Shown here: positions 4,410-62,716 of the stretch, piece after piece
How the letters are laid out: every line of letters starts with the position of its first letter
Numbering within the stretch: the stretch's first letter is position 1
NCBI RefSeq assembly: GCF_003390915.1
Contig: NZ_QMEM01000005.1
Coordinates: forward strand, 1 to 64,000
From: Lewinella sp. IMCC34183
GTDB lineage: Bacteria; Bacteroidota; Bacteroidia; Chitinophagales; Saprospiraceae
Direction: 5' to 3'
DNA length: 64,000 nt
Notes under the pieces: model-generated
Databases searched by the model: none
What the model saw: the letters and a program-made list of their open reading frames with translations, nothing else
Told to the model about the DNA's origin: nothing
Made by a program: the position numbers and the translations under genes

Positions 4410-4513
4410 GCGGGTGACCGGCCGGCTAAACGCTGGAGCGGGCGAATGGCGCTTTTATCCTGCCCGCTAGCGCGCAGTTGTGCAGTATAAGCCCGTTCTT
4501 CAAGGCCGTGTCT

Positions 4514-5725
4514 ATGACTATACGCACGATCCTACTATCCCTACTGGCATCTTCCGCTTCGCTACACGGTCAGTCCGGGGCCCCCATCATCCGTAGCGAC
4601 GCCGTAGAAGTAAGTGGTACCGTGGGTAGAGATGGGAATGTGCTGTTGGCCGTACTGGAACGCCGCGTGGTCGCGGGATTACCCAGGGGGCAGATCTCGG
4701 TCTACGGCGCTTCCCATAAGGACGGATCCTGGGAGCCGATTTACCAAACGGGCGAAAGCAGTACCGCTGAGGACGTGGAATACGGAGACCCCAGTCTGGT
4801 GTACAACAGCCACGACGACCGTTTTTACCTGTTCGGAATGAAAATTCGTCGCTTGACGGGAAAGGACGGAGATGCGGTCTACGAGCCACCGGAGTTCAGG
4901 TCGGATCTGTTCGTCCGGTCGGCCGGCTCGGCCGGGAAGGACTGGTCGCCACCCAGGTTACTTCACGAAGATGCCGGCCGGTCCTTTGCCGACTATCCGG
5001 TAGCTCTGCTGCTCGATAAAACGCGCATCCTGGTGGCTTACACGGCAATTACCAGCCGGGACGCCGCAAGCGCTTCTTCCAGAATCCATTTGTCCTTGCT
5101 CAACCCGCTCGACGGCAGCTTGAGGTCCACTACCTTGCCCGAGGACCTCGGTATCGCACCCACGAAATCCGTAAGCTCCGTGGTGGCGGAGGGCAGCACC
5201 GTCTATTTGACGGTCGCTGACCCGGAGCGCCTTCATATTGTCGCGTACGACCTCGTCCGCGAATCCTTCAAATTGCTGATCAGCTACCCCCACTCGTTCG
5301 ACTGGACCAGGAATGTGGTGATCACCAAGTCGGTCGTGCACGGGGGGAAGGTGTACGTCGCGGCGCACCAGGCGCATACCGTCAATTCGGTCGTTAGCCT
5401 GTACCGTTTTGACCTGCGGCGGGGCATAGCCGCGGCTATTCGCAGCGATATAAAGGGTTCGCATATCTGCCTGGTTGGGGCAGGAGACAGATTGGTGATC
5501 ACCGCGAACCAAAAAATAGGAAGCCGGAGCAAGCTCGCCGTATACGCGCAACACCGGGGGAGCGAGAAGATCCGGCTGATCCGACGCTACGATACGGGAA
5601 AGTGGTCTTCGACGGGATATACGGGAGAATACCAGTACCTCCTGGAAACCGAAGGAAAGCTCACGCAATACTACATCAGGCATTCCCACCCACCCGGCGT
5701 CGGGCAGCGGCTGATCGGGCACTAG
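4514..5725 (+). CDS. Secreted protein, probably beta-propeller/sialidase-like, function unknown
   Basis: A 403-residue protein with a signal peptide (MTIRTILLSLLASSASLHGQ). I preferred the ATG at 4514 to one at 4478 because the longer form places 12 polar residues before the signal sequence. The mature part is rich in strands with repeated motifs such as GDPSLVYNSHDDRFYLFG and ILVAYTAI, reminiscent of BNR/sialidase or GH43-type propellers, but no Asp-box (SxDxGxTW) is intact. I do not recognise a specific enzyme family. No T9SS tail is present. It stands alone between the MBL hydrolase and a decayed gene. Confidence 0.65.
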   Translation: MTIRTILLSLLASSASLHGQSGAPIIRSDAVEVSGTVGRDGNVLLAVLERRVVAGLPRGQISVYGASHKDGSWEPIYQTGESSTAEDVEYGDPSLVYNSHDDRFYLFGMKIRRLTGKDGDAVYEPPEFRSDLFVRSAGSAGKDWSPPRLLHEDAGRSFADYPVALLLDKTRILVAYTAITSRDAASASSRIHLSLLNPLDGSLRSTTLPEDLGIAPTKSVSSVVAEGSTVYLTVADPERLHIVAYDLVRESFKLLISYPHSFDWTRNVVITKSVVHGGKVYVAAHQAHTVNSVVSLYRFDLRRGIAAAIRSDIKGSHICLVGAGDRLVITANQKIGSRSKLAVYAQHRGSEKIRLIRRYDTGKWSSTGYTGEYQYLLETEGKLTQYYIRHSHPPGVGQRLIGH

Positions 5726-50200: not shown

Positions 50201-51286
50201 TTAAGCCTTTGTACTCCCGTCCAGCCGTTCGCGCACCTTGCGGACCACCAGGGGCAGGTTGTCGGATTCGACGATCCGGCTGTGTACGACCACGGGCGTG
50301 GTGAACCGCGGCGTCCCCCGTTTGCTGAGGATCTGTACGCGCATGTCGTAGAGGTTGGCCGTCCGCACGATGTCGAAGCGGTACCGTTGCCCCTCGTTGT
50401 CGTAGGTGAGCACGAAGTAGAACTCCAGGGGCAGCGGCCGGCCGATCAGGAGGAGCTGGGGGGCGTCGAGCATCACGTTCTCGCCCTGTTGTACGGGCCG
50501 GAAGCGGCCGGTAAAGGACGGGTACTCGCGGAATTGCGACCGTACGCCCACGGTGGCCAGCGCCAGGCGGGCCTCGTTCAGGTACTGCCGGTTGATGACT
50601 AGGGGGTCGGCGGGGGCGGGATCGGGCGCTTCTGGATGGACACGCCATTCGCCGCTGGCGATATCGCGGTACTCCATCGGCCCGAGCCGCAGCTTATAGT
50701 CGAAAGCGGGGAAGGTGGGCGAGTAGTAGCCCGGGTAATAGTAGGTGAAGTCGCGCTCCAGCCCCAGTTCTACCTCCAGCAGCATGGTGTAAAGTCCAAG
50801 GCTGGCGCTGGCGTAGGCCGGGTCGTAAATACCGGCCTTGGTGTACATCACGCGGCGGCCGACGTCGAAGTAACTAAAGGCCACCAGGCGCTCCCCCTCG
50901 TACACCCGCAGCAGGTGGGTACCCAGCACCTGTTGCCCGTCTTCGTTGTATACGTTATACTCCAGGTCTTCCCGCGTCTTGTCCGGATGCTCGCGCATGT
51001 AAAGCCGGTTGACGTGCAGGAGCTCCTCGTCCGGAGTGCCGGCACGCTCGTGGGTGACGCGGAACCGCCGGCCGTTCCGGCGCAGGAGCTTGCGGTGGCG
51101 CCGCTTGAAGGTGAAGTCGGTCAGCGGCAACCGGATCTGCAGGCAGCCGTGGAGCTCGTCGTCGTCGGTACGCAGGTAGTCGGACGTATAGATGGACTGG
51201 CCCGTGGGCCGCCACCCCCGTTCCAGAAAGGCGTCGAGGTTCTCCGGCTCAAGGAACTGCTGAGGATGGATAATGTGGGTGGCCAA
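50201..51286 (-). CDS. Arginyl/leucyl-tRNA-protein transferase-like protein
   Basis: A 361-residue protein related to the arginyl-tRNA:protein transferase (ATE/Bpt) and GNAT folds. The Cys-rich N-terminal region of canonical ATE is missing. RRHRKLLRRNGRRFRVT, a family-like basic block, and DVGRRVMYTKAGIYDPAYASASLGLYTMLLEVELGLERDFTYYYPGYY, the highly conserved C-terminal core, are clear. Starts with TTG at 51286; a -7 box TACCTTTG is 18 bases upstream. It may attach an amino acid to protein N-termini, but without the N-domain activity is uncertain. Confidence 0.75.
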   Translation of the reverse strand: MATHIIHPQQFLEPENLDAFLERGWRPTGQSIYTSDYLRTDDDELHGCLQIRLPLTDFTFKRRHRKLLRRNGRRFRVTHERAGTPDEELLHVNRLYMREHPDKTREDLEYNVYNEDGQQVLGTHLLRVYEGERLVAFSYFDVGRRVMYTKAGIYDPAYASASLGLYTMLLEVELGLERDFTYYYPGYYSPTFPAFDYKLRLGPMEYRDIASGEWRVHPEAPDPAPADPLVINRQYLNEARLALATVGVRSQFREYPSFTGRFRPVQQGENVMLDAPQLLLIGRPLPLEFYFVLTYDNEGQRYRFDIVRTANLYDMRVQILSKRGTPRFTTPVVVHSRIVESDNLPLVVRKVRERLDGSTKA

Positions 51287-51352: not shown

Positions 51353-52798
51353 TTAACGGGCGGGAGGTATTATGAGTTCCGCCTCGCGGAAGTCGTGACG
51401 CCCCGCCCCGCACGTCCAGCAGCTGTAGTCTTCGGGTACTTCCGCAAAGGGGGTGCCGGCCGGCACCCCCGCCGCCGCGTCCCCGTAAGTCGGATCATAG
51501 ACGCTCAGGCAGCGGCCGCACTGCATGGCGGAGCGGGTCGACGCGGCGGCGGCGGGCCGGTGGGTACTGCGGACGACCTCCTCCAGCTGCCCGTCCAGCT
51601 GCTCGAAGTACCGCTGGCTGAGCTCCAGCATCAGTTCCGCGAGTTCCGAGCGGTCGACGCGGCGGGCGTATTCGGCGTACTGCCGCGTATTGGGGTCAAA
51701 GTTGCGCGCGCACTTCAGCGTGTAGAGGGGCGGCACCGGGAAGCCGTCGACCAGGCCCTCCCGCGACGGCTCCCGTTCGATGAAGATGCTGGTGAAGGGC
51801 ACGTGGTCGCCGTCGCTGATGCCGAAGGTCAGCCCGTAGGTGCTGATGTCGCGGCGGTCGAACTCCCGCACCAGGTACCGCTTCAGCTCGAGGGCGTCGC
51901 CGTCGGCGACCGGCAGGTGCCAGTTGAGCTCCAGGCTGCTGTGGCGGGCGTTGATGCCGAACCGGCCGAGCAGCTTTTCCCAGCGCAGGCGACCGCCGTC
52001 CGGGATGCCGCTTACGATGAAGCTCTTCCAGGGCGTGATGCTCAGCTTGCCGATCCGGTGCTCCAGGCAGAGGTCGCAGGCGGCGGCCATGAAGTCGAGG
52101 GAGTACCAGTTGTCGCGCCAGTAGAGCCCGAGCCAGTAGTGCTCGGCGTCCAGCCGGTTCATGCCCTCGTAGTAGGGGAAGGGCCGGAAGGGGATCGTCA
52201 GGTCGTCCCGCACGTCGCGCAGGTTGAGGTTTTCGTTTTCGTGGACCAGGGCGATCACTTCCTCCAGGTCTTCGGCGCTCCCGGCCCCGCACAGGCTGCC
52301 GGCTACGCGGCCCAGGTCCCAACTGTGGATGAGGGCGGGGAAGGTGCGCATCTCCGGCCAGCCGGGCAACTTGATGTAGAGGTACCAGTAGTCCTCCTCC
52401 GCCGAGGCCACAAAATTGAGGTGGCCGGTGAAGAGCGGCACCAGGCGCTGGCGCGGGTCCGCCAGGTTGATCTCCAGGGTTGCCGGAAAGCTGAATTGCT
52501 CCAGCAGGTACAGGTAGGTGGAGCTGGTGAGCCAGGGCGTGGAGGGAAAGATTCCTGCCGCTACGTAGCTGCACACGATGTTGGCGCAGTGGGGGCCGGC
52601 CAGGGACTCGACCCGCAGCCGCGGGAAGCGCGCCAGTATGCCGGCCTGCTCTTCGCGGACCGGAAAGAGGATATCCTGCCGCGACCCGAAATGCAGGCCG
52701 TCTAGGCCCAGGGCACGCGCCAGGTCGATGATGGTGAGCAGTTCGCTGGGCGACAGGACGCCGCCGCGTACGGCCACGCGGTGGAGCTTGGTTCTCAT
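51353..52798 (-). CDS. Sulfite/nitrite-reductase-like protein with C-terminal rubredoxin domain
   Basis: A 481-residue protein in the nitrate operon. Residues about 10-60 resemble the first half-domain of siroheme reductases (GGVLSPSELLTIIDLARALG, FGSRQDILFP). A second copy follows at about 250-330 (KLSITPWKSFIVSGIP). Yet the usual Fe-S ligands (CxxxxxC plus CxxxC) are not found: cysteines occur as PHCANIVCS and AACDLCL, and the expected CTG..C block reads SSLELNWHLP. The last 60 residues are a rubredoxin domain (CGRC ... CWTCG). The ATG at 52798 overlaps the end of the nitrate reductase gene. It probably transfers electrons; nitrite reductase activity is open. Confidence 0.7.
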   Translation of the reverse strand: MRTKLHRVAVRGGVLSPSELLTIIDLARALGLDGLHFGSRQDILFPVREEQAGILARFPRLRVESLAGPHCANIVCSYVAAGIFPSTPWLTSSTYLYLLEQFSFPATLEINLADPRQRLVPLFTGHLNFVASAEEDYWYLYIKLPGWPEMRTFPALIHSWDLGRVAGSLCGAGSAEDLEEVIALVHENENLNLRDVRDDLTIPFRPFPYYEGMNRLDAEHYWLGLYWRDNWYSLDFMAAACDLCLEHRIGKLSITPWKSFIVSGIPDGGRLRWEKLLGRFGINARHSSLELNWHLPVADGDALELKRYLVREFDRRDISTYGLTFGISDGDHVPFTSIFIEREPSREGLVDGFPVPPLYTLKCARNFDPNTRQYAEYARRVDRSELAELMLELSQRYFEQLDGQLEEVVRSTHRPAAAASTRSAMQCGRCLSVYDPTYGDAAAGVPAGTPFAEVPEDYSCWTCGAGRHDFREAELIIPPAR

Positions 52799-55700
52799 AC
52801 GGCGCTGAGTTGGTGTTCGAGGATGCTTTTCACTTCGGGGCGGCAGCTTCCGCAGCCCAGGCCGGCGCCCGACTGCGCCACCAGGGCGTCGTAGTCGCGG
52901 CAACCGCCGGCGATGGCCCCGACCAGGTTGCCCTCGCCGACGTTGTTGCAGCTGCACACCAGGCGGCCCTGCAGCGGCGGCCGGGAGCTGCCCGACCGCA
53001 GCAGTTCCTCGCGCCGGTCGCCCAGTTCGAGGCGGTCCTCGATGAGCGCGCGGTACTCCGCAAATTCGTTCTTGTCGCCGATGAGTACGGCCCCGACCAG
53101 GCGGTCCTGGTACACGACGCACTTCTTGTAGTACCGCCGGCTCAGGTCGCGGAAGACCACCTCCTCGTAGCCGTCCACACCGGGCGGCGGACTGGTTTCG
53201 CCCAGGCTGCAGAGGTCGAGGTCGCGAAACTTGAGGATATTCATCGGTACGGACCCGGCGTACACCGCCGTTACGTCGCCGGCCAGGGAAGCGGCCAGTA
53301 CGTCGGCCTGCTGCTCGGCCGCGGCGGTGATGCCGAAGCGGCGCCCCCGCCACTCCGCCACTTCCCCTATGGCGTAGACCCGCTCGTCGCTGGTCTGCAG
53401 CCGATCGTCTACCTGTATGCCGCCGCCGCAGCGCAGCCCCGCGGTCCGGCCTACCTCCAGGTTCGGGCGCGTGCCGATGGCGTACACCACCGCGTCGCAT
53501 ACCAGGCCGATTCCGCTCTTGAACGTTACCCGCAGCGCACCTGCGGCCCCGCCCTCCCCCGCGGCGATGGGGAAGATGGTGTCCACCTCGTTGCGGAAGT
53601 AGATCTGGATGCCCCGCGCGCCGACGTCGTCGGCCAGGAGCTGGCTGGCCGTAGCGTCCAGTTGCCGCTCCATCAGGCGGTTGCTGCGCTGCACCAGCGT
53701 CACCCGCACGTCGATCTCCTGCAGGGCGGCGGCCAGCTCCAGGCCCAGCAGCCCGCCGCCGACGATGAGGGCGTGGGCCGGGCGTTGCCGGCGGGCGGCG
53801 GCCAGGTGGCCGTTGAGTCGGTCCGCGTCTTCCCGCTGCCGCATCGTGAAGACGCCCGGCAGGTGCAGGGGGACGTCGCGGGGCACGAAGGGGCGGCTGC
53901 CGGTGGCGATCACCAGGCGGTCGTAGGCGTAGCTTTCGCCGCTGGCGGTGTAGAGCACGCGGTGCTCGCGGTCGATCCGTTCGATCGTGGTGTCGAGGTG
54001 CAGGTCGAATTCCGGTCGCTCGTCCCGGCGGAGCTTCTGCAGCTGCTCCCAGCTCAGGTGCTCGGTGACGTACTCCGGCAGGAGCACCCGGTTGTAGAAG
54101 GCGTGGGACTCCCGCGAGAACACCGTAATGCGGTCGCGGCGGTTGTGCGCCCGGTAGCTGGCGATGAAGCGGTGGGCCGCCGCGCCGGCCCCGATCACCA
54201 CGATGTGCTCCGCTTCCTTCTCATAGGGCCGTACGCTCACGTGGCAGAACTTGTAGTTGGGCTGCTTGCTGTAGGGGTCCAGGCTGTCGTCGGTCAGGTT
54301 GTTGGCCCGGGTCAGGGCGCTGCCGAGGGTCTTTCCCCAGTGCATCGGCAGGAAGACGACGCCCCGCCGCAGGTCACGCGAGTAGCGGACGCGAGCGCGT
54401 ACCTCCCCGTTGGCGGAGCGGATCACCGCCAGCTGGTCTTCCGCCAGCCGCTCGGCCGCAGCGTCCAGTGGGTGGATCTCGAGGTAGGGCAGCTCGATGT
54501 GCCGCCGCAGCCGCGCCACCTTGCCCGTGCGGGTCATCGTGTGCCACTGGTCGCGGATGCGGCCGGTGGTAAGCACGTACGGCCGGTCGGGCGGCGGGGG
54601 CGGGGGCACCTCCTGGTGGGAGATGGTACTGAGGAAGCGGGCCCGGCCGGTCGGGGTATAGAAGCGGTGGTCGGTGAACAGCCGCGGCGTTCCGGGGTGG
54701 ACGGGTGTCGGCACGGGCCACTGAAAGCTGCCCTCCCGCCGCAGCCGCTCGTGGCTCAGGCCGCTGACGTCGATGCGGGTACCGGCGGTCATGCGCGCGT
54801 ACTCGTCGTACACTTCCCCCACGTCGCGGTAGTCGAAGCCGGCAAAGCCCATGCGCCGCGCGAAGTCTATGAGGATATCCGCGTCCGGCCGCGCTTCCCC
54901 CGGCGGGGGCACGAGGGGCTGCAGCAGGCTGATGCGGCGGTCGGAGTTGGTCATCGTCCCGGTCTTTTCCAGCCAGCCGGCGGCGGGCAGCAGCAGGTCG
55001 GCGTAGGCGGCGGTGTCGCTGCGGTTGCTGATGTCCTGTACCACCACGAAGCGGGCCTTGCGCAGGGCCCCGTCGGCCCGCAGGGCGTTGGGGAGGCTCA
55101 CCGAGGGGTTGGTACAGATGATCCAGATGGCCTTCAGTTTGCCGCTTTCCAGGGCGTCGAACATCTGGGTGGCGGTCAGGCCGGGCGCGGCGGGCAGCTG
55201 TTCCACGCCCCAGAAGCGGGCGATTTCCTCCCGGTCCTCCCGGTTGGCCAGCACGCGGTGGGCGGCGAGCAGACTGGCCATGCCCCCCACCTCGCGGCCG
55301 CCCATGGCGTTGGGCTGGCCGGTGAGCGAGAAGGGGCCGGCACCCGGCTTGCCGATCTGCCCGGTCAGCAGGTGGAGGTTGATCAGGCTGCCGTTCTTTT
55401 CCACCCCCACCCGGCTCTGGTTGAGGCCCATGGCCCACATCGACAGGAAGGCCCGGGCGTCGCCGATGTAGTCGGCGGCGCGCTTGATGTCGTCCAGGCT
55501 TACGCCGCAGGTCTTGGCGGCGGAGCGCAGGTGCAGCGCCTTGAGGATGCGGACGTAATTTTCCCCGGCTTCCGTGTGGCTGCGGATGAACTCGAGGTCC
55601 ATGCGGTTGGTGTCGTACAGCCGGCGGGCGATGGCGTGGTAAAGCAGCACGTCGGTACCGGGCACGATCTGCAGGTGCAGGTCGGCCAGGGCGCAGGTGT

Positions 55701-56322
55701 CGGTCCGGCGGGGGTCCACCACGATGATCCGGGTGCCCGGGGCGGCCGCTTTCCGGGCTTCTACCCGCCGCCACAAGATGGGATGGCACCAGGCCGGGTT
55801 GGCCCCGGCCACCAGCAGGCAGTCGGTGTGGTCGATGTCCTCGTAGCTCACGGGCACGGCGTCCTCCCCCAGCATCTTGGTGTAGGCGACGACCGTGGAG
55901 CTCATGCACAGCCGCGAGTTGGTATCGATGTTGTTGGTGCCCAGGTATCCCTTCACCAGCTTGTTGGCCAGGTAGTACTCCTCCGTGAGGCACTGCCCGG
56001 AAATGTAGAAGCCCACGCTGTCCGGCCCGTGCTCCGCGATGACGGAGCGAAATACGGCCGCGGCGCGGTCGAGGGCCTCGTCCCAGCTGGCGCGCCGCAG
56101 TTCGTGGTGGCGGTTGAGCCGCAGCTGGGGGTAGAGGAGGCGGTCCGAGCGATCCTGGACTACGTAGTTGAGGGTGCGCCCCTTCGAGCAGAGCTGCCCC
56201 CGGTTGGCGGGGTGGTCGGGGTCGCCCTCCACCGTGAGGTGGCCCCGCCCGTCGCGGCGGGCAATGATTCCGCAGCCTACGCCACAGTACGAACAGGTGG
56301 TCTTCACTTCGGATACGGCCAT
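52795..56322 (-). CDS. nasA: Nitrate reductase fused to FAD/NAD(P)H and BFD modules
   Basis: A 1175-residue cytosolic enzyme of three parts. About 1-700 is an assimilatory molybdopterin nitrate reductase: N-terminal [4Fe-4S] motif CSYCGVGC with QLCSKG, candidate Mo-ligand Cys in TNSRLCMSS, and LTGQPNAMGGREVGG. About 720-1080 is an NirB-like FAD/NAD(P)H reductase (VIGAGAAAHRFI, LVIATGSRPFVP, GLLGLELAAAL, VYAIGEVAEWRG). The C-terminus (about 1120-1170) is a BFD-type [2Fe-2S] domain (VCSCNNVGE and GCGSC). Start ATG at 56322. Fusion allows direct NAD(P)H-to-nitrate electron flow. Symbol by domain similarity. Confidence 0.88.
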   Translation of the reverse strand: MAVSEVKTTCSYCGVGCGIIARRDGRGHLTVEGDPDHPANRGQLCSKGRTLNYVVQDRSDRLLYPQLRLNRHHELRRASWDEALDRAAAVFRSVIAEHGPDSVGFYISGQCLTEEYYLANKLVKGYLGTNNIDTNSRLCMSSTVVAYTKMLGEDAVPVSYEDIDHTDCLLVAGANPAWCHPILWRRVEARKAAAPGTRIIVVDPRRTDTCALADLHLQIVPGTDVLLYHAIARRLYDTNRMDLEFIRSHTEAGENYVRILKALHLRSAAKTCGVSLDDIKRAADYIGDARAFLSMWAMGLNQSRVGVEKNGSLINLHLLTGQIGKPGAGPFSLTGQPNAMGGREVGGMASLLAAHRVLANREDREEIARFWGVEQLPAAPGLTATQMFDALESGKLKAIWIICTNPSVSLPNALRADGALRKARFVVVQDISNRSDTAAYADLLLPAAGWLEKTGTMTNSDRRISLLQPLVPPPGEARPDADILIDFARRMGFAGFDYRDVGEVYDEYARMTAGTRIDVSGLSHERLRREGSFQWPVPTPVHPGTPRLFTDHRFYTPTGRARFLSTISHQEVPPPPPPDRPYVLTTGRIRDQWHTMTRTGKVARLRRHIELPYLEIHPLDAAAERLAEDQLAVIRSANGEVRARVRYSRDLRRGVVFLPMHWGKTLGSALTRANNLTDDSLDPYSKQPNYKFCHVSVRPYEKEAEHIVVIGAGAAAHRFIASYRAHNRRDRITVFSRESHAFYNRVLLPEYVTEHLSWEQLQKLRRDERPEFDLHLDTTIERIDREHRVLYTASGESYAYDRLVIATGSRPFVPRDVPLHLPGVFTMRQREDADRLNGHLAAARRQRPAHALIVGGGLLGLELAAALQEIDVRVTLVQRSNRLMERQLDATASQLLADDVGARGIQIYFRNEVDTIFPIAAGEGGAAGALRVTFKSGIGLVCDAVVYAIGTRPNLEVGRTAGLRCGGGIQVDDRLQTSDERVYAIGEVAEWRGRRFGITAAAEQQADVLAASLAGDVTAVYAGSVPMNILKFRDLDLCSLGETSPPPGVDGYEEVVFRDLSRRYYKKCVVYQDRLVGAVLIGDKNEFAEYRALIEDRLELGDRREELLRSGSSRPPLQGRLVCSCNNVGEGNLVGAIAGGCRDYDALVAQSGAGLGCGSCRPEVKSILEHQLSAV

Positions 56323-56504: not shown

Positions 56505-57788
56505 ATGAAACAGCTTATCTACCTGCTTTTCCTCGTCGGCGCCGCGGCACCACTCGGTGCCCAGTTCCGGCTTTCGGCCGAGGTGCGGCCGCGGACCGAG
56601 TTCCGTAACGGCTTCAAGACCCCCCGCTCGCCGGGCGACGCCCCGGCCTTCTTCACCGAGCAACGCAGCCGCCTCTACGTAGACTACGCAGAGGAGAAGT
56701 ACACCTTCCGCCTGGCGCTCCAGGACGTCCGGCTGTGGGGGGAGGAACCCCAGATCTTTAAGGACGACGCCGGCAACACCTTCCTGAGCGAGGCCTGGGG
56801 GCAGTACCACGTCAGCCCGCGCTTCTCCGTCAAGGCGGGCCGCCAGATCATCAGCTACGACAACGAGCGCATCCTCGGTGGCCTCGAGTGGGCCCAGCAG
56901 GGCCGCCGGCACGACGCCCTCCTGCTGCAGTTCACCGACGAGAAGAAGGTCAACCAGCTCCACCTCGGCTTCGCCTTCAACGCCGACGACGACCGCCCGG
57001 AACCCGGCTACCTACAGGCGCCGGGGGCTAATTTCTACACCGTCGCGGGCAACTACAAGAGCCTGCAGTACGCCTGGTTCAACCATACCTTCGCCGAAGA
57101 ACAGGGGACGCTGTCGCTGCTGACCCTCAACGCCACCCAGCAGAACCCCGACTCCACGGTCTCCAACAAGCAGACCCTGGGCGCCTATCTGGACTACCAG
57201 CTCGGCAAGTTCCGCCTGGGCGCCGACCTCTATACCCAGACCGGCCGACTGGGCGGCCGCAGCGTCGCCGCCTGGCTCGGCGGCCTCAACGTCACCTACC
57301 CCACCAAGGCCACGCCCCTCACCCTGGGGGTCGAGTACGTGTCCGGACAGGACGACGCCAACGACACCGACCGGGCGACCTACTTCCTACCCGACTACGG
57401 CACGAACCACGCCTTCAACGGCCTGATGGACTACTTCTACGTCGGCCCCGCCAACGGCACCGTCGGCGTGACGGACCTCTACCTTAAGACCAAGTGGGCC
57501 GTCGGGGGAGCCTCCCTGCTGGCCCACGTTCACCACTTCCTCACCGGCTCCGAGCAGCTGGACGCAGCCGGCAACGCCCTCTCCCCCTCCCTGGGCAGCG
57601 AGCTCGACCTGGTGTACGTGCGCGCCCTGGCCCCCGCCGTCACTCTGCACGTCGGCTACTCCCACCTCCTCGGCACCGAGACGCTCACCGACCTGCGGCC
57701 CGGCAGCATGAAGTCGAATAACTGGGCCTGGACCATGATCACCTTCAAGCCTACCCTCTTCGAAACGGAGGCTAAAAAGAAAAAATAA
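56505..57788 (+). CDS. Outer-membrane porin (alginate-export-like) of the nitrate operon
   Basis: A 427-residue outer-membrane beta-barrel with a signal peptide (1-19, ending LGAQ). [17 protein letters not shown] and the strand [31 protein letters not shown] match the alginate_exp/porin group, and strands alternate to a C-terminal [13 protein letters not shown]. As the first gene of the Nrt operon, it probably lets nitrate or nitrite through the outer membrane; specificity is inferred from location. Expression would be driven by the TAGATTTG promoter. Confidence 0.8.
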
Positions 57789-57822: not shown

Positions 57823-59196
57823 ATGCGATACTCCTACCTGCCCCTCCTCCTGCTGGCCTGCATCCTCACCGCCTGCGGTCAGCACGCCGCCGCACCCGCC
57901 ACCGACGGCGCCGCCGCCGCCAACCTGGCGCTCATTGAAAAGCCCCAGCTGACCTTCGGCTTCATCAAGCTCACCGACATGGCCCCGCTGGCCATCGCCA
58001 AGGAACTCGGCTACTTCCGCGAGGAGGGGCTCTACGTTACCCTGGAAGCCCAGTCGAACTGGAAAAATATCCTGGACCGGGTGATCGACGGGCAACTCGA
58101 CGGCGCCCACATGCTGGCCGGGCAGCCCATCGCCGCCGGTGCCGGCTTCGGCCGCCAGGCCAAGCTGATCACCCCCTTCAGCATGGACCTCAACGGCAAC
58201 GGCATCACCGTGTCCAACGACGTCTGGGACAAGATGAAGCCCCACCTCCCCCTCGACGCCGACGGGCGGCCCGCCCACCCGATCTCGGCCACGGCGCTCG
58301 CGCCCGTGGTGGAGGAGTACCGCAACGCCGGAAAGGCCTTTAAAATGGGGATGGTCTTCCCCGTGTCCACCCACAACTACGAGCTCCGCTACTGGCTGGC
58401 TGCGGCGGGCATCCACCCCGGTTTCTATACCGCCGACAACATCCAGGGACAGGTGGACGCCGAGGTGCTGCTCTCCGTCACCCCGCCCCCGCAAATGCCC
58501 GCCACCCTCGAGGCCGGCACCATCTACGGCTACTGCGTAGGCGAGCCCTGGAACCAGCAGGCCGTCTTCAAGGGCATCGGGGTGCCCGTGGTGACCAACT
58601 ACGACATCTGGCAGAACAACCCCGAAAAGGTATTTGCCCTGCGGGCCGACTTCGCTACCCAGTACCCCAACACCACGACGGCCATCACCAAGGCCCTCAT
58701 CCGGGCGGGACAGTGGCTCGACGACCCGGCCAACCGCGCCCGGGCCGTCGGCATCCTCTCGCGGCCCGATTACGTGGGGGCCGACTCCGTGGTCCTGGCC
58801 AACTCCATGACCGGCACTTTCGAATTCGAGAAGGGAGACAAGCGGGATATGCCGGACTTCAACGTCTTCTACCGCCACGACGCCACCTACCCCTTCTACT
58901 CCGACGGTATCTGGTTCCTGACCCAGATGCGCCGCTGGGGCCAGATTCCCGAAGCCAAGCCGGCCGACTGGTACCACGCCACCATCAAGGAAATCTACCG
59001 CCCCGACCTCTGGCGCACCGCCGCTTCCGCACTGGTGGCCGAGGGGCACATCCCCGCTGCCGACGTGCCGGAGACCGACGGCTACAAGCCCGCCACCTCC
59101 GCCTTCATCGATGGCCTCCCCTACGACGGTAAGGACCCCATCGGCTACCTCAACAGCTTCTCCATCGGCAACAAGGACGCAGAACCCAGCCGCTAG
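57823..59196 (+). CDS. Nitrate/nitrite ABC transporter substrate-binding lipoprotein
   Basis: A 457-residue CmpA/NrtA-family binding protein anchored through Cys18 ([13 protein letters not shown]). Conserved blocks: [71 protein letters not shown] and [14 protein letters not shown]. Known members bind nitrate/nitrite or bicarbonate; nitrate is favoured by the adjacent reductase. It is followed by permease and two ATPases in the same direction. Spacing to the porin is 34 bases. Confidence 0.9.
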
Positions 59197-59234: not shown

Positions 59235-60338
59235 ATGGGACAATCCCAAGCCACCACCTCCCTGGCCCCCGCCCCGAAGGCGGCCCTGCCCGCCCTGACC
59301 CGCTTCCTGCCCGACCGGGCGGCCCTGGCCCGCCGGGCCCCGGGCGCAGCCCGCACCCTCCTCATCTCCCTGGCCTCGATGGCCGTATTCCTGCTGCTGT
59401 GGCAGCTCAGCGCCAGCTACCTCTACGGCGTCGAGGCGGACGCCCGCATCGCGCGGGTCACCCAGGAACAGGGCGAGGCCGCGGGCGCGGAGATGGCGGC
59501 CTGCATCGCCTCCGGCAACATCAGTTGCCGGCCCAATACCCTGCCCTTCCCCGGCGAGGTCGTGCAGGCCGCGCAACTGCTGCTGGCCGACCACCGCGCC
59601 ATCCGGGCGAAGAAGCTTGCCTTCCGCGCCGAGACCGCCCCGGTGAACGCGGCCCGCGCCGAGCAGGGCCTCGACCCGATCGTGTACACGGGCCGGCCGT
59701 CCTTCCTCGACCAGGTGGGCACCAGCCTGAAGACGGTCGCCGTAGGCTTCCTCATCTCGCTGCTCATCGCGGTGCCCCTCGGCGTACTGATCGGGCTGAA
59801 CGATACCCTGCGCATCGCCTTCAACTGGATGATCCAGGTCTTCAAGCCGGTGTCGCCGGTGGTCTGGCTGCTACTCGTCTTCATGATCGTAAAGACCCTC
59901 ACGCTCGGCTCGGATTCGGATACCTCCTTCCTCATCTCCTCCATCAGCGTAGGCCTCTGCGCCATGTGGGCCACCCTGGTGAATACCAGCCTGGGCGTCT
60001 CCTCGGTGAACAAGGACTACCTGAACGTGGCCCGCGTGCTCCAGCTCGGCATCGGCAAGAAGATCTTCAAGGTCATCCTGCCCTCCGCTATCCCGCTGAT
60101 CTTCACCGGCATGCGTATCACCGTGAGCGTCGCCTGGATGGTCCTCATCGCCATCGAGCTCCTGGCCCAGAGCCCCGGCCTCGGCTCCTTCGTCTGGGAG
60201 GAATTCCAGAACGGAGGCACCGACAGCAACGCCAAGATCATCGTCGCCATGTTCGTCATCGGACTCGTGGGCTTCCTCCTGGACCGCATGATGTTCTGGG
60301 TACAGCAGCGGGTTTCCTTCGAAACGGTACGGGCCTGA
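59235..60338 (+). CDS. Nitrate ABC transporter permease (NrtB-like)
   Basis: A 367-residue inner-membrane permease. N-terminal Ala/Pro-rich lead, then helix LLISLASMAVFLLLWQLSASYL. A long insert (about 75-150, containing CIASGNISCRPNTLPFP) lies between the first and second helices. The transmembrane core begins LDQVGTSLKTVAVGFLISLLIAVPLGVLIGLNDT and holds the EAA-type loop (LNVARVLQLGIGKKIFKVILPSAIPLIFTGMR). It matches the CmpB/NrtB size class including the insert. It forms the channel for the two downstream ATPases. Confidence 0.9.
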   Translation: MGQSQATTSLAPAPKAALPALTRFLPDRAALARRAPGAARTLLISLASMAVFLLLWQLSASYLYGVEADARIARVTQEQGEAAGAEMAACIASGNISCRPNTLPFPGEVVQAAQLLLADHRAIRAKKLAFRAETAPVNAARAEQGLDPIVYTGRPSFLDQVGTSLKTVAVGFLISLLIAVPLGVLIGLNDTLRIAFNWMIQVFKPVSPVVWLLLVFMIVKTLTLGSDSDTSFLISSISVGLCAMWATLVNTSLGVSSVNKDYLNVARVLQLGIGKKIFKVILPSAIPLIFTGMRITVSVAWMVLIAIELLAQSPGLGSFVWEEFQNGGTDSNAKIIVAMFVIGLVGFLLDRMMFWVQQRVSFETVRA

Positions 60339-60390: not shown

Positions 60391-61254
60391 ATGATAGAAT
60401 TCCGCAACGTAAGCCACTGGTACGGCGAAGGCCCCGACCGCACCGAAGTGCTTTCCAACATCAACCTGACCATCGCCGAGGGCGAATTCCTGGCCATCGT
60501 GGGCTTCACCGGATCCGGAAAGACCACCCTGGTCAACCTCATGACCGGCCTGCTGCAGCCCAGCGCGGGGCAGGTCCTGTACCGGGGCGAGCCGATTACC
60601 GGCCCGGCACCCGAGCGGGGCATCATCTTCCAGAATTACAGCCTGCTGCCGTGGCTATCGGTCTACCAGAACGTGGCCCTCGCGGTCGACGAGGTGTACG
60701 ACGACTGGCCGAAGGGCCGCCGCGACGCCCACATCCGGAAGTTCGTGGAAATGGTGGGACTGAGCCACGCGATCGACAAGCACCCCGGCGAACTGAGCGG
60801 GGGGATGCGGCAGCGCGTATCGATCGCCCGCGTGCTGGCCACCGACCCCGACCTGCTGCTGATGGACGAGCCGCTCGGTGCCCTCGACGCCCTCACCCGC
60901 GGCAACCTCCAGGATGAGATCCTGCGCATTTGGAGCGCCAACCGCCGCACCGCCGTGCTGATCACCAACGACGTCGACGAGGGCATCTACATGGCCGACC
61001 GGATCATTCCCCTCGACCCCGGACCGGCCGCCGGCCTGGGCCCGGAGTTCCGCATCGACCTCGAACGGCCACGCGACAAGACGGATATGAACCACGATCC
61101 CCACTTCAAGCGCGTGCGCACCGACATCCTCAATTACCTCGTCGGTCTCGGGGAGGCCTCCCGCCCGCCCCGCGACGGATCACTCCGCCTGCCCGATCTA
61201 CAACCCATCCTGCCCGGCACCCGCAGCTTCGTCTCCCGCTGGCGCCGCGCCTAA
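60391..61254 (+). CDS. Nitrate ABC transporter ATP-binding protein (NrtC-like)
   Basis: A 287-residue ATPase. Walker A GFTGSGKTTL, Q-loop IIFQNYSLLPWLS, signature LSGGMRQRVSIARVLATDPDLLLMDEPLGALD (Walker B included). Compared with NrtC of cyanobacteria it lacks the C-terminal substrate-binding-like domain. The C-terminus ends in a basic/proline stretch. It should pair with the second ATPase gene downstream. Confidence 0.9.
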   Translation: MIEFRNVSHWYGEGPDRTEVLSNINLTIAEGEFLAIVGFTGSGKTTLVNLMTGLLQPSAGQVLYRGEPITGPAPERGIIFQNYSLLPWLSVYQNVALAVDEVYDDWPKGRRDAHIRKFVEMVGLSHAIDKHPGELSGGMRQRVSIARVLATDPDLLLMDEPLGALDALTRGNLQDEILRIWSANRRTAVLITNDVDEGIYMADRIIPLDPGPAAGLGPEFRIDLERPRDKTDMNHDPHFKRVRTDILNYLVGLGEASRPPRDGSLRLPDLQPILPGTRSFVSRWRRA

Positions 61255-61265
61255 CCCCCTACCCC

Positions 61266-62069
61266 ATGAGTGTCCTACCTGCCCCCTCCGCGCTTTCCCT
61301 GCGCGACGTCGTCCTCGACTTCCGCGACCTGACCAAGGTGTACCCCACCCCGACCGGCGAGTACGTAGTGCTGGAAAACCTGCAGCTACAGATCAAAAAG
61401 GAGGAATTCGTTTCCATCATCGGCCACTCCGGCTGCGGAAAGACGACCCTGCTCACGATGATCGCCGGCCTCAACGACATCAGCCGCGGCCAAATCCTGC
61501 TGAACGAGTTCCCGATCACGGGACCGGGGCCCGACCGGGGCGTGATCTTCCAGTCGCCCAGCCTCCTGCCCTGGATGACCGCCCTGGAAAACGTCCTGCT
61601 CGGTGTCGAACAGGTGTTCCCGCAGGCCAGCCGCGCCCAGCAGCGCGACATCTGCCGCTACTACCTCGACAAGGTGGGCCTCGGCAACGCGCTCGACCGG
61701 CGCGCCACCGAGCTCAGCCAGGGTATGCAGCAGCGGGTGGGAATTGCCCGGGCCTTCGCCCTGAAACCCAAGATCCTGCTCCTGGACGAACCCTTCGGTA
61801 TGCTTGACTCCCTGACGCGCGCCGAACTGCAGGACGTCCTGCTGGAAGTCTGGGATAAGGAAAAGATTACCGCCATCCAGATCACCCACGACGTCGACGA
61901 AGCCATTTTCCTGGCCGACCGGGTGATCATGATGACCTCGGGGCCGCGTGCCCAGATCGGCGACATACTGGACATCGACTTTGCGCGGCCGCGGGTGCGG
62001 AAGGACATCCTCAACCACCCCGACTACTACGGCTACCGCGAGCACCTCATCGGCTTCCTGGAACACTAG
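61266..62069 (+). CDS. Nitrate ABC transporter ATP-binding protein (NrtD-like)
   Basis: A 267-residue ATPase, paralogous to the preceding one. Walker A GHSGCGKTTLL, Q-loop VIFQSPSLLPWM, signature LSQGMQQRVGIARAF (with Gln for Gly), Walker B ILLLDEPFGMLD, and switch His in THDVDEAIFLADR. The lead VLDFRDLTKVYPTPTGEYVVLENL is a standard NrtD/CmpD start. It ends convergently with the response-regulator gene, overlapping by 4 bases. The ATG at 61266 is preferred over any upstream frame. Confidence 0.9.
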   Translation: MSVLPAPSALSLRDVVLDFRDLTKVYPTPTGEYVVLENLQLQIKKEEFVSIIGHSGCGKTTLLTMIAGLNDISRGQILLNEFPITGPGPDRGVIFQSPSLLPWMTALENVLLGVEQVFPQASRAQQRDICRYYLDKVGLGNALDRRATELSQGMQQRVGIARAFALKPKILLLDEPFGMLDSLTRAELQDVLLEVWDKEKITAIQITHDVDEAIFLADRVIMMTSGPRAQIGDILDIDFARPRVRKDILNHPDYYGYREHLIGFLEH

Positions 62070-62716
62070 CCGAGCCCGAGCTGGCGGACGCGGCGGGCGA
62101 GTTCGCTGCTGTTGCTGACGTTCAGTTTCTTCATCATGTTGAAGCGGTGTGTTTCTACGGTCCGCCGGCTGAGCTCGAGCTGATCGGCGATCTCCTGGTT
62201 GGTGGCCCCCTGCAGGATGATCGGGAGGATCTGCTTCTCCCGCCGCGTGAGTACGATCTTTTCGGTGGGTTCGGCCGGTTTCGGCGACAGGTCCGACCGC
62301 ACCAGCTGGCGGATCAGGATATTGGACAGATCGCCACTGAAGTAGCGGTCGCCACCAACGATGGTGTGTACCGCGCGCAGAAATTCCTCCCGGCTGGCGT
62401 CCTTGAGCAGGTATCCGTACGCGCCGGCGTCGATGGACTGCAGGACGTACTCCTCGCTATCGTGCATCGAGAGCATCAGGCAGGGGACGGTATGGCCCTC
62501 CTGTGCCAGCCGCCGCACGGCTTCGATGCCGTTCAGCCGGGGCATCCGGATATCGACGATCGCCAGATCGGGCCGTGCGGTACGGACCAGCTCCAGCAGG
62601 GCCTCCCCGTTATCGGCTTCCCCGACCACGTGCAGGTCGGGCTCATCTTCGAGCAGGCGCCGGATGCCGTCCCGGACGAGCGCGTGATCGTCGGCGAGTA
62701 TAATATTGATTGGCAT
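62066..62716 (-). CDS. LuxR-family response regulator (NarL-like)
   Basis: A 216-residue two-domain regulator: receiver (ADDHALVRDG, phospho-acceptor Asp55 in VDIRMPRLNG) and C-terminal LuxR-type HTH (LTRREKQILPIILQGATNQEIADQLELSRRTVETHRFNMMKKL). It is the type used by NarXL/NarQP nitrate systems. Its neighbour, the kinase gene 37 bases upstream, is the probable partner. Location beside the Nrt/Nas genes makes control of this island likely. The stop overlaps the NrtD-like stop by 4 bases, convergently. Confidence 0.9.
   Translation of the reverse strand: MPINIILADDHALVRDGIRRLLEDEPDLHVVGEADNGEALLELVRTARPDLAIVDIRMPRLNGIEAVRRLAQEGHTVPCLMLSMHDSEEYVLQSIDAGAYGYLLKDASREEFLRAVHTIVGGDRYFSGDLSNILIRQLVRSDLSPKPAEPTEKIVLTRREKQILPIILQGATNQEIADQLELSRRTVETHRFNMMKKLNVSNSSELARRVRQLGLG

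Follow-up and report, generated by a model that had tools for sequence, protein, structure and literature searches.

What is the role of a protein that joins a body resembling siroheme-dependent sulfite and nitrite reductases to a C-terminal rubredoxin, lacks the cysteines of the reductase iron-sulfur cluster, and is encoded by a gene overlapping that of a nitrate reductase? The question is raised by an open reading frame at 51,353-52,798 (minus strand, ATG start, 481 amino acids) in a window of 64,000 nucleotides from Lewinella sp. IMCC34183 (positions 1-64,000 of contig NZ_QMEM01000005.1). We coined the name RdNir for this protein in the present analysis. Its predicted siroheme-reductase-fold body spans residues 1-405 and is followed by the rubredoxin.

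Pfam analyses identified a first NIR_SIR_ferr half domain (PF03460; residues 7-51, 52,646-52,780 on the minus strand; 39.1 bits against a cut-off of 24), which contains the motif FGSRQDILFP, and a rubredoxin domain with two CxxC ligand pairs (PF00301; residues 425-470, 51,389-51,526 on the minus strand; 51.6 bits against a cut-off of 23; C427, C430, C460 and C463). In a profile search of the genome, which is 98% complete, RdNir was the sole PF00301 match. The catalytic NIR_SIR domain PF01077 did not match RdNir at E<=1, and its only matches in the genome are the assimilatory sulfite reductase (SiR) and NirB. No NCBIfam model scored above its cut-off on the window protein. Identity as precorrin-3B synthase (CobG) was rejected, as TIGR02435 gave 11 bits against a cut-off of 234.8. 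The second NIR_SIR half is recognised by profile alignment and fold only. In the alignments, FGSRQDILFP lines up with the siroheme-reductase motif TTRQ, and KLSITPWKSF with the equivalent strand of the second half. The paired half-domain pattern proposed from the sequence alone is thus borne out by PF03460, the profile alignment and the fold over the whole body, and the terminal rubredoxin by its PF00301 score and a match to the rubredoxin fold.

An AlphaFold2 model of RdNir has a pLDDT of 82.6, with the lowest value in the body (61) at residues 281-290. The structural comparison with NirA/CysI that the sequence-only reading had proposed yields a complete predicted siroheme-reductase fold: the model aligns with Escherichia coli SiRHP (4g38) at Z 25.8 and 3.9 Å over 372 residues, with spinach nitrite reductase (2akj) at Z 23.1 and with Mycobacterium tuberculosis NirA (1zj8) at Z 21.1. 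The tail aligns with Desulfovibrio gigas rubredoxin (1rdg) at Z 9.7 and 1.3 Å over 52 residues. Profile comparison with hhalign matched the RdNir body to SiR end-to-end over 387 columns (probability 88.6%, E 2.6e-6), with probabilities of 89.7% in a second run and 87.3% for SiR and NirA combined. The probability against NirA, a small set of five sequences, was 4%, and that against NirB was weak (16% and 36% in two runs) and confined to the region around the first half domain. A search of the body profile against the sequences of PDB chains returned no siroheme reductase and a single match, 6bdc, with E 0.15. The relation therefore rests on PF03460, hhalign and the fold, from which we conclude that the body has a predicted full siroheme-reductase fold.

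To characterise the family we compiled 109 sequences, comprising the window protein, 28 from genomes of the phylum and the best 80 of at least 583 loci; some species are possibly in both source sets, and the bodies of L006 and L037 are identical, leaving 108 distinct sequences. The CX5C...CX3C cluster motif is found in the body of none of the 108 (which include the best 80 of at least 583), and neither half of it occurs within residues 265-345. Two methods, a MAFFT alignment of 13 RdNir sequences with 23 reductases and hhalign, agree on the fate of the ligand segments. The first ligand loop of SiR and NirA, with its CX5C, is an 11-column gap in RdNir beside NARHSSLEL, within residues 283-296 (NARHSSLELNWHLP; 51,911-51,952, minus strand). 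The second segment, with its CX3C, falls near LTFGISDGD (residues 323-331; 51,806-51,832, minus strand). Stray cysteines occur in these two segments in 3/108 and 9/108 of the distinct sampled sequences, respectively. The cluster cysteines are hence absent, as the sequence-only reading had stated. That reading also held that ligands conserved at shifted positions would overturn it; we looked for them in the 108 sequences and found none, the only conserved cysteines being those of the rubredoxin and a C241-x-x-C244 pair in the body (52,067-52,078, minus strand). Given the failure of this defining cluster test, we do not file RdNir as a siroheme reductase.

The C241 and C244 residues, each present in 107 of the 108 distinct sequences (including the best 80 of at least 583), are new relative to SiR and NirA and had gone unremarked in the earlier reading. 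Segment 283-300 is 18 residues long in all 108, and R285 and H286 (107/108 each) as well as E290 and K258 (108/108 each) are near-invariant. The replaced ligand segments are thus not decayed. Across the 109 sampled sequences, conservation reaches 98% or more in 57 columns, indicating that the protein as a whole is not decaying.

We also compared the substrate pocket. Of four basic positions, the last is occupied by Asn in tobacco nitrite reductase, and the window protein keeps only R7, with the second Arg replaced by A72 and the Lys pair by T107 and E109. These four substrate residues (Arg, Arg, Lys, Lys) are conserved across sulfite reductases (PMC10229431); their equivalence to RdNir positions was assigned in the present analysis. 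Within the distinct sampled sequences, the R7 position holds R in 102/108 and K in 5/108, and R40 is found in 108/108. None of the 108 keeps the Arg preceding N73 (the RN motif), which is replaced by E, Q, N, P, A, S, H or D; we take this Arg to correspond to SiRHP Arg153. Elsewhere in the family, K or R is found at position 107 in 62/108 and at position 109 in 95/108, in a KxK register taken from MAFFT that differs from the hhalign register by one residue.

RdNir therefore resembles NirA, CysI and SiRHP in its two-half-domain fold over approximately residues 1-405 and in the equivalents of R7 and R40, but differs in lacking the four cluster cysteines, the RN-motif Arg and PF01077, and in its new CxxC and rubredoxin. 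The tail has the Cys4 site and fold of a PF00301 rubredoxin, but is fused C-terminally to a reductase-like body. A rubredoxin-type Cys4 site occurs in 107/108 distinct sequences (including the best 80 of at least 583), and the loop between the CxxC pairs has 28-29 residues in 106 of the 109 sampled. L029 and L028 have shorter loops, of 15 and 8 residues respectively, and L033 lacks the domain. The shortened Cys4 domains of L028 and L029 may, we assume, be nearer to a rubrerythrin-like or zinc-ribbon site. Judging from the residues alone, the Cys4 of the RdNir tail may hold Zn in place of Fe. Overall, RdNir is a metal-stripped relative of siroheme reductases with a rubredoxin, a new combination of known parts.

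We identified RdNir in 29 of 395 Bacteroidota genomes by matches to the body in a single-protein search, an approach that could miss distant relatives; 12 further genomes with a rubredoxin-only match were dropped from the count. A profile search in one class recovered the same four RdNir genomes and one not in the first sample. A genome scan found at least 583 stretches encoding relatives, which together with the 29 genomes indicates that the protein is not a chance product. The closest named relative among the matches listed is from Neolewinella aquimaris (78% identity). Four plasmid records carry RdNir, two from Persicobacter and one each from Hymenobacter and Spirosoma. We conclude that RdNir is a conserved Bacteroidota family. 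RefSeq names one member only ‘rubredoxin’ (WP_245126150.1, Hymenobacter volaticus), and a full-text literature search, with coverage excluding most subscription papers, found no description of the protein. A mention of rubredoxin in PMC10232911 concerns PknG, which is unrelated.

The RdNir gene lies in a cluster for nitrate use. Upstream on the same strand, 52,795-56,322 (minus strand) encodes an assimilatory nitrate reductase in which NasA (Mo/4Fe4S), an FAD pyridine-nucleotide oxidoreductase and a BFD [2Fe-2S] domain are fused, as assigned by Pfam. The ATG of RdNir overlaps the stop of this gene by 4 bp (ATGA, 52,795-52,798), in agreement with the overlap described earlier; the FAD and BFD domains on the nitrate reductase are an addition to that description. 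PF18267, the C-terminal domain of rubredoxin reductases, is present in the FAD part of the fusion. It is also present in the FAD part of NirB and hence is no specific sign of a rubredoxin partner. Divergent from these genes, Pfam identified an outer-membrane porin (Alginate_exp; 56,505-57,788, plus strand), homologues of which recur in many of the best 80 of at least 583 loci. The porin gene is followed on the plus strand by genes for a nitrate-binding protein (NMT1_2; 57,823-59,196), a permease (BPD_transp_1; 59,235-60,338) and two ATPases (ABC_tran; 60,391-61,254 and 61,266-62,069), whose products are presumably NrtA-, NrtB-, NrtC- and NrtD-like, respectively. A response regulator (Response_reg and GerE; 62,066-62,716, minus strand), which we take to be of the NarL type, comes next. 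At or beyond the window end lie genes for a PilJ-HisKA_3 sensor kinase, a DUF4202 protein, a Rieske protein (NirD) and NirB, the last at 65,607-68,009 of the contig, outside the window. Besides NirBD, the genome encodes an assimilatory SiR; NirB and SiR both have their siroheme/4Fe-4S domains intact. Overall, the locus is a nitrate-assimilation island of the ordinary kind, in a Neolewinella-like bacterium.

Directly downstream of RdNir, 50,201-51,286 (minus strand) encodes an arginyl-tRNA-protein transferase-like protein (ATE_C), and a homologue is found downstream in L037-L040. DUF4202 homologues recur beside nirD/nirB in many of the best 80 of at least 583 loci, for example at 4,479-5,117 (minus strand) of L035 (245 bits).

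We examined synteny in 92 loci, the best 80 of at least 583 and 12 further loci. RdNir follows an FAD-bearing nitrate reductase ORF on the same strand in 90 of the 92, and the two exceptions, L043 and L129, begin at contig ends. In 88 of these 90, one ORF encodes both the NasA and the FAD domain; the other two are truncated by contig ends. Measured from the stop of the NasA fusion to the point where the RdNir frame opens (rather than to its start codon), the distance has a median of -16 and is at most 245 bases in 88 loci, with 594 and 828 in the remaining two.

Among the 395 genomes, fused NasA is found in 33 (full-length matches, with G179 counted at 158-1177), and NirB scores above the cut-off in 28, which are exactly those with both the NasA fusion and RdNir. 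The additional RdNir genome, G126, has its gene at a contig edge, without the rubredoxin; the NasA fusion and NirB were both searched for in this genome and neither was found. Five genomes have the fusion without RdNir (G008, G050, G155, G179 and G219). They have no NirB above the cut-off, and each encodes a NirA within approximately 3 kb (444-574 bits), with CX5C...CX3C in 5/5. RdNir was not found in the eight genomes of the 395 with unfused NasA only. A second sample, drawn from one class (195 genomes, some of them shared with the first), gave RdNir in five and NirB in the same five, and seven NasA fusions without NirB, none of them accompanied by RdNir. The co-occurrence of RdNir and NirB may rest on few evolutionary events, as when one cluster is inherited together. 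The link to nitrate or nitrite reduction anticipated from the sequence is strongly supported by the synteny and co-occurrence.

The ligand motifs of NirA are intact in these five fused-NasA genomes lacking RdNir (loci L117-L121), and NirA is followed in L118 and L121 by what we take to be flavodoxin-like and FNR-like ORFs. Plasmid matches to NasA number 285, of which only five cover at least 80% of the fusion, from Persicobacter (2), Hymenobacter, Spirosoma and Nonomuraea; the Nonomuraea match has 33.5% identity and is in two pieces. A NasA match is also found in Cupriavidus.

Based on the fold, the missing ligands, the rubredoxin, the overlap with and position behind the NasA fusion and the presence in every sampled NirB genome, we propose, with confidence that is evenly balanced, that RdNir is a pseudo-nitrite-reductase and acts as an adaptor subunit, for redox transfer or docking, of the NAD(P)H-type nitrate reductase of Bacteroidota (the NasA-FAD-BFD fusion) in pathways where NirBD would make the ammonia. 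The body would dock onto the NasA fusion, perhaps also onto NirBD. The tethered rubredoxin would relay electrons from the FAD module, which is of the rubredoxin-reductase class, to the Mo enzyme or the siroheme enzyme, and the CxxC of the body might bind a second metal or form a redox disulfide. The electron-delivery function suggested from the sequence is our favoured, tentative reading. Against an adaptor stand the NasA fusions without RdNir in NirA genomes, the loss of the rubredoxin in L033 and its shortening in L028 and L029. Nor do the data support a view of RdNir as a stand-in for an electron-transfer module lost from NasA: in the sampled loci, the fusion keeps the BFD motif in 84/84 ORFs with RdNir and 5/5 without, and the N-terminal 4Fe4S motif, by regular expression, in 82/84 and 4/5. 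The fusion thus has its own modules, and none is missing that would call for a rubredoxin, which speaks against a simple electron bridge.

Several known systems offer partial parallels. In the anaerobic NO reductase flavorubredoxin NorV, as in RdNir, a C-terminal rubredoxin is carried on a larger body, but the NorV body is a flavodiiron protein and not a siroheme-reductase fold. The FAD part of the NasA fusion scores 158 bits against NorW, the reductase of NorV, below the NCBIfam cut-off of 392. RdNir shares its pathway and a related half domain with NirBD, but NirB keeps its FAD, BFD and NIR_SIR domains. The flavoprotein Flp of Bradyrhizobium japonicum is needed for growth on nitrate and not on nitrite, as described in PMC4724949, and is an auxiliary redox protein of nitrate use that provides a precedent for a nitrate-specific redox partner. 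Flp differs in being itself an FAD/NAD(P)H flavoprotein (PMC4724949); here, such a module is fused to NasA.

Two further readings place RdNir between the NasA fusion and NirBD. We regard as possible, if somewhat doubtful, that an ancestral nitrite reductase lost its siroheme/[4Fe-4S] site and became a rubredoxin-bearing coupling subunit joining the NasA fusion and NirBD in a nitrate-to-ammonia complex of Bacteroidota, with electrons and possibly nitrite passing between them. A subunit that only bridges the same partners structurally, or channels nitrite between them, without electron transfer, would suit L033, which has no rubredoxin, and the occurrence of RdNir in the 395 genomes only where the fusion and NirB are both found, except in G126 at a contig edge; conservation of the Cys4 in 107/108 sampled members points instead to a metal function, and we consider such a bridge distinctly unlikely. 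Alternatively, RdNir might be a maturation or cofactor-delivery factor, bound to NasA or NirB while Mo, Fe-S or siroheme is inserted, with the rubredoxin as a metal- or redox-sensing domain. Consistent with this role, the gene overlaps or lies close to that of the NasA fusion, the protein has no catalytic cluster of its own and is found in every NirB genome sampled, and in Hymenobacter volaticus a cobA gene (siroheme synthesis) follows RdNir. The role is rendered unlikely, however, by the five genomes in which the NasA fusion occurs without RdNir and by E. coli and Bacillus subtilis, our search controls, which have NirB and are not known to encode RdNir.

The sequence-only reading had also considered that the protein might itself reduce nitrite, using another set of cofactors. 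Such an active nitrite or oxyanion reductase would use siroheme without [4Fe-4S] and receive electrons via the tethered rubredoxin, perhaps with H286 as an axial ligand. The predicted complete reductase fold, the retention of R7 and R40 in the pocket and the strict conservation of R285, H286 and E290 in place of the first cluster loop would agree with catalysis. However, all four cluster ligands are absent, the RN-motif Arg is missing from all 108 sampled sequences, the KxK is replaced in the window protein (although 95/108 have K or R at position 109), PF01077 is unmatched and 28 of the 29 RdNir genomes have NirB. NirB, NirD and SiR are all encoded in this genome, cofactor domains included, so that nitrite reduction does not require RdNir. 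We thus disfavour it as the nitrite reductase of the genome and judge the active enzyme quite improbable. More improbable still is a nitrate/nitrite or NO sensor-regulator, with sensing by the oxyanion pocket and transduction by the rubredoxin or CxxC. Sensor-kinase and response-regulator genes are present in the same cluster and the pocket is partly kept, but Pfam recognises no output domain in RdNir, which follows an enzyme gene in all 90 loci with readable upstream DNA.

Nitrate assimilation in the Bacteroidota that carry RdNir thus appears to be a three-part system, composed of the NasA-FAD-BFD fusion, RdNir and NirBD, and the function of its middle part is not described in the literature that we searched. 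It would be unusual for an enzyme to have become a redox adaptor in this way, its siroheme-reductase scaffold maintained by strong selection once the catalytic metal site was lost.
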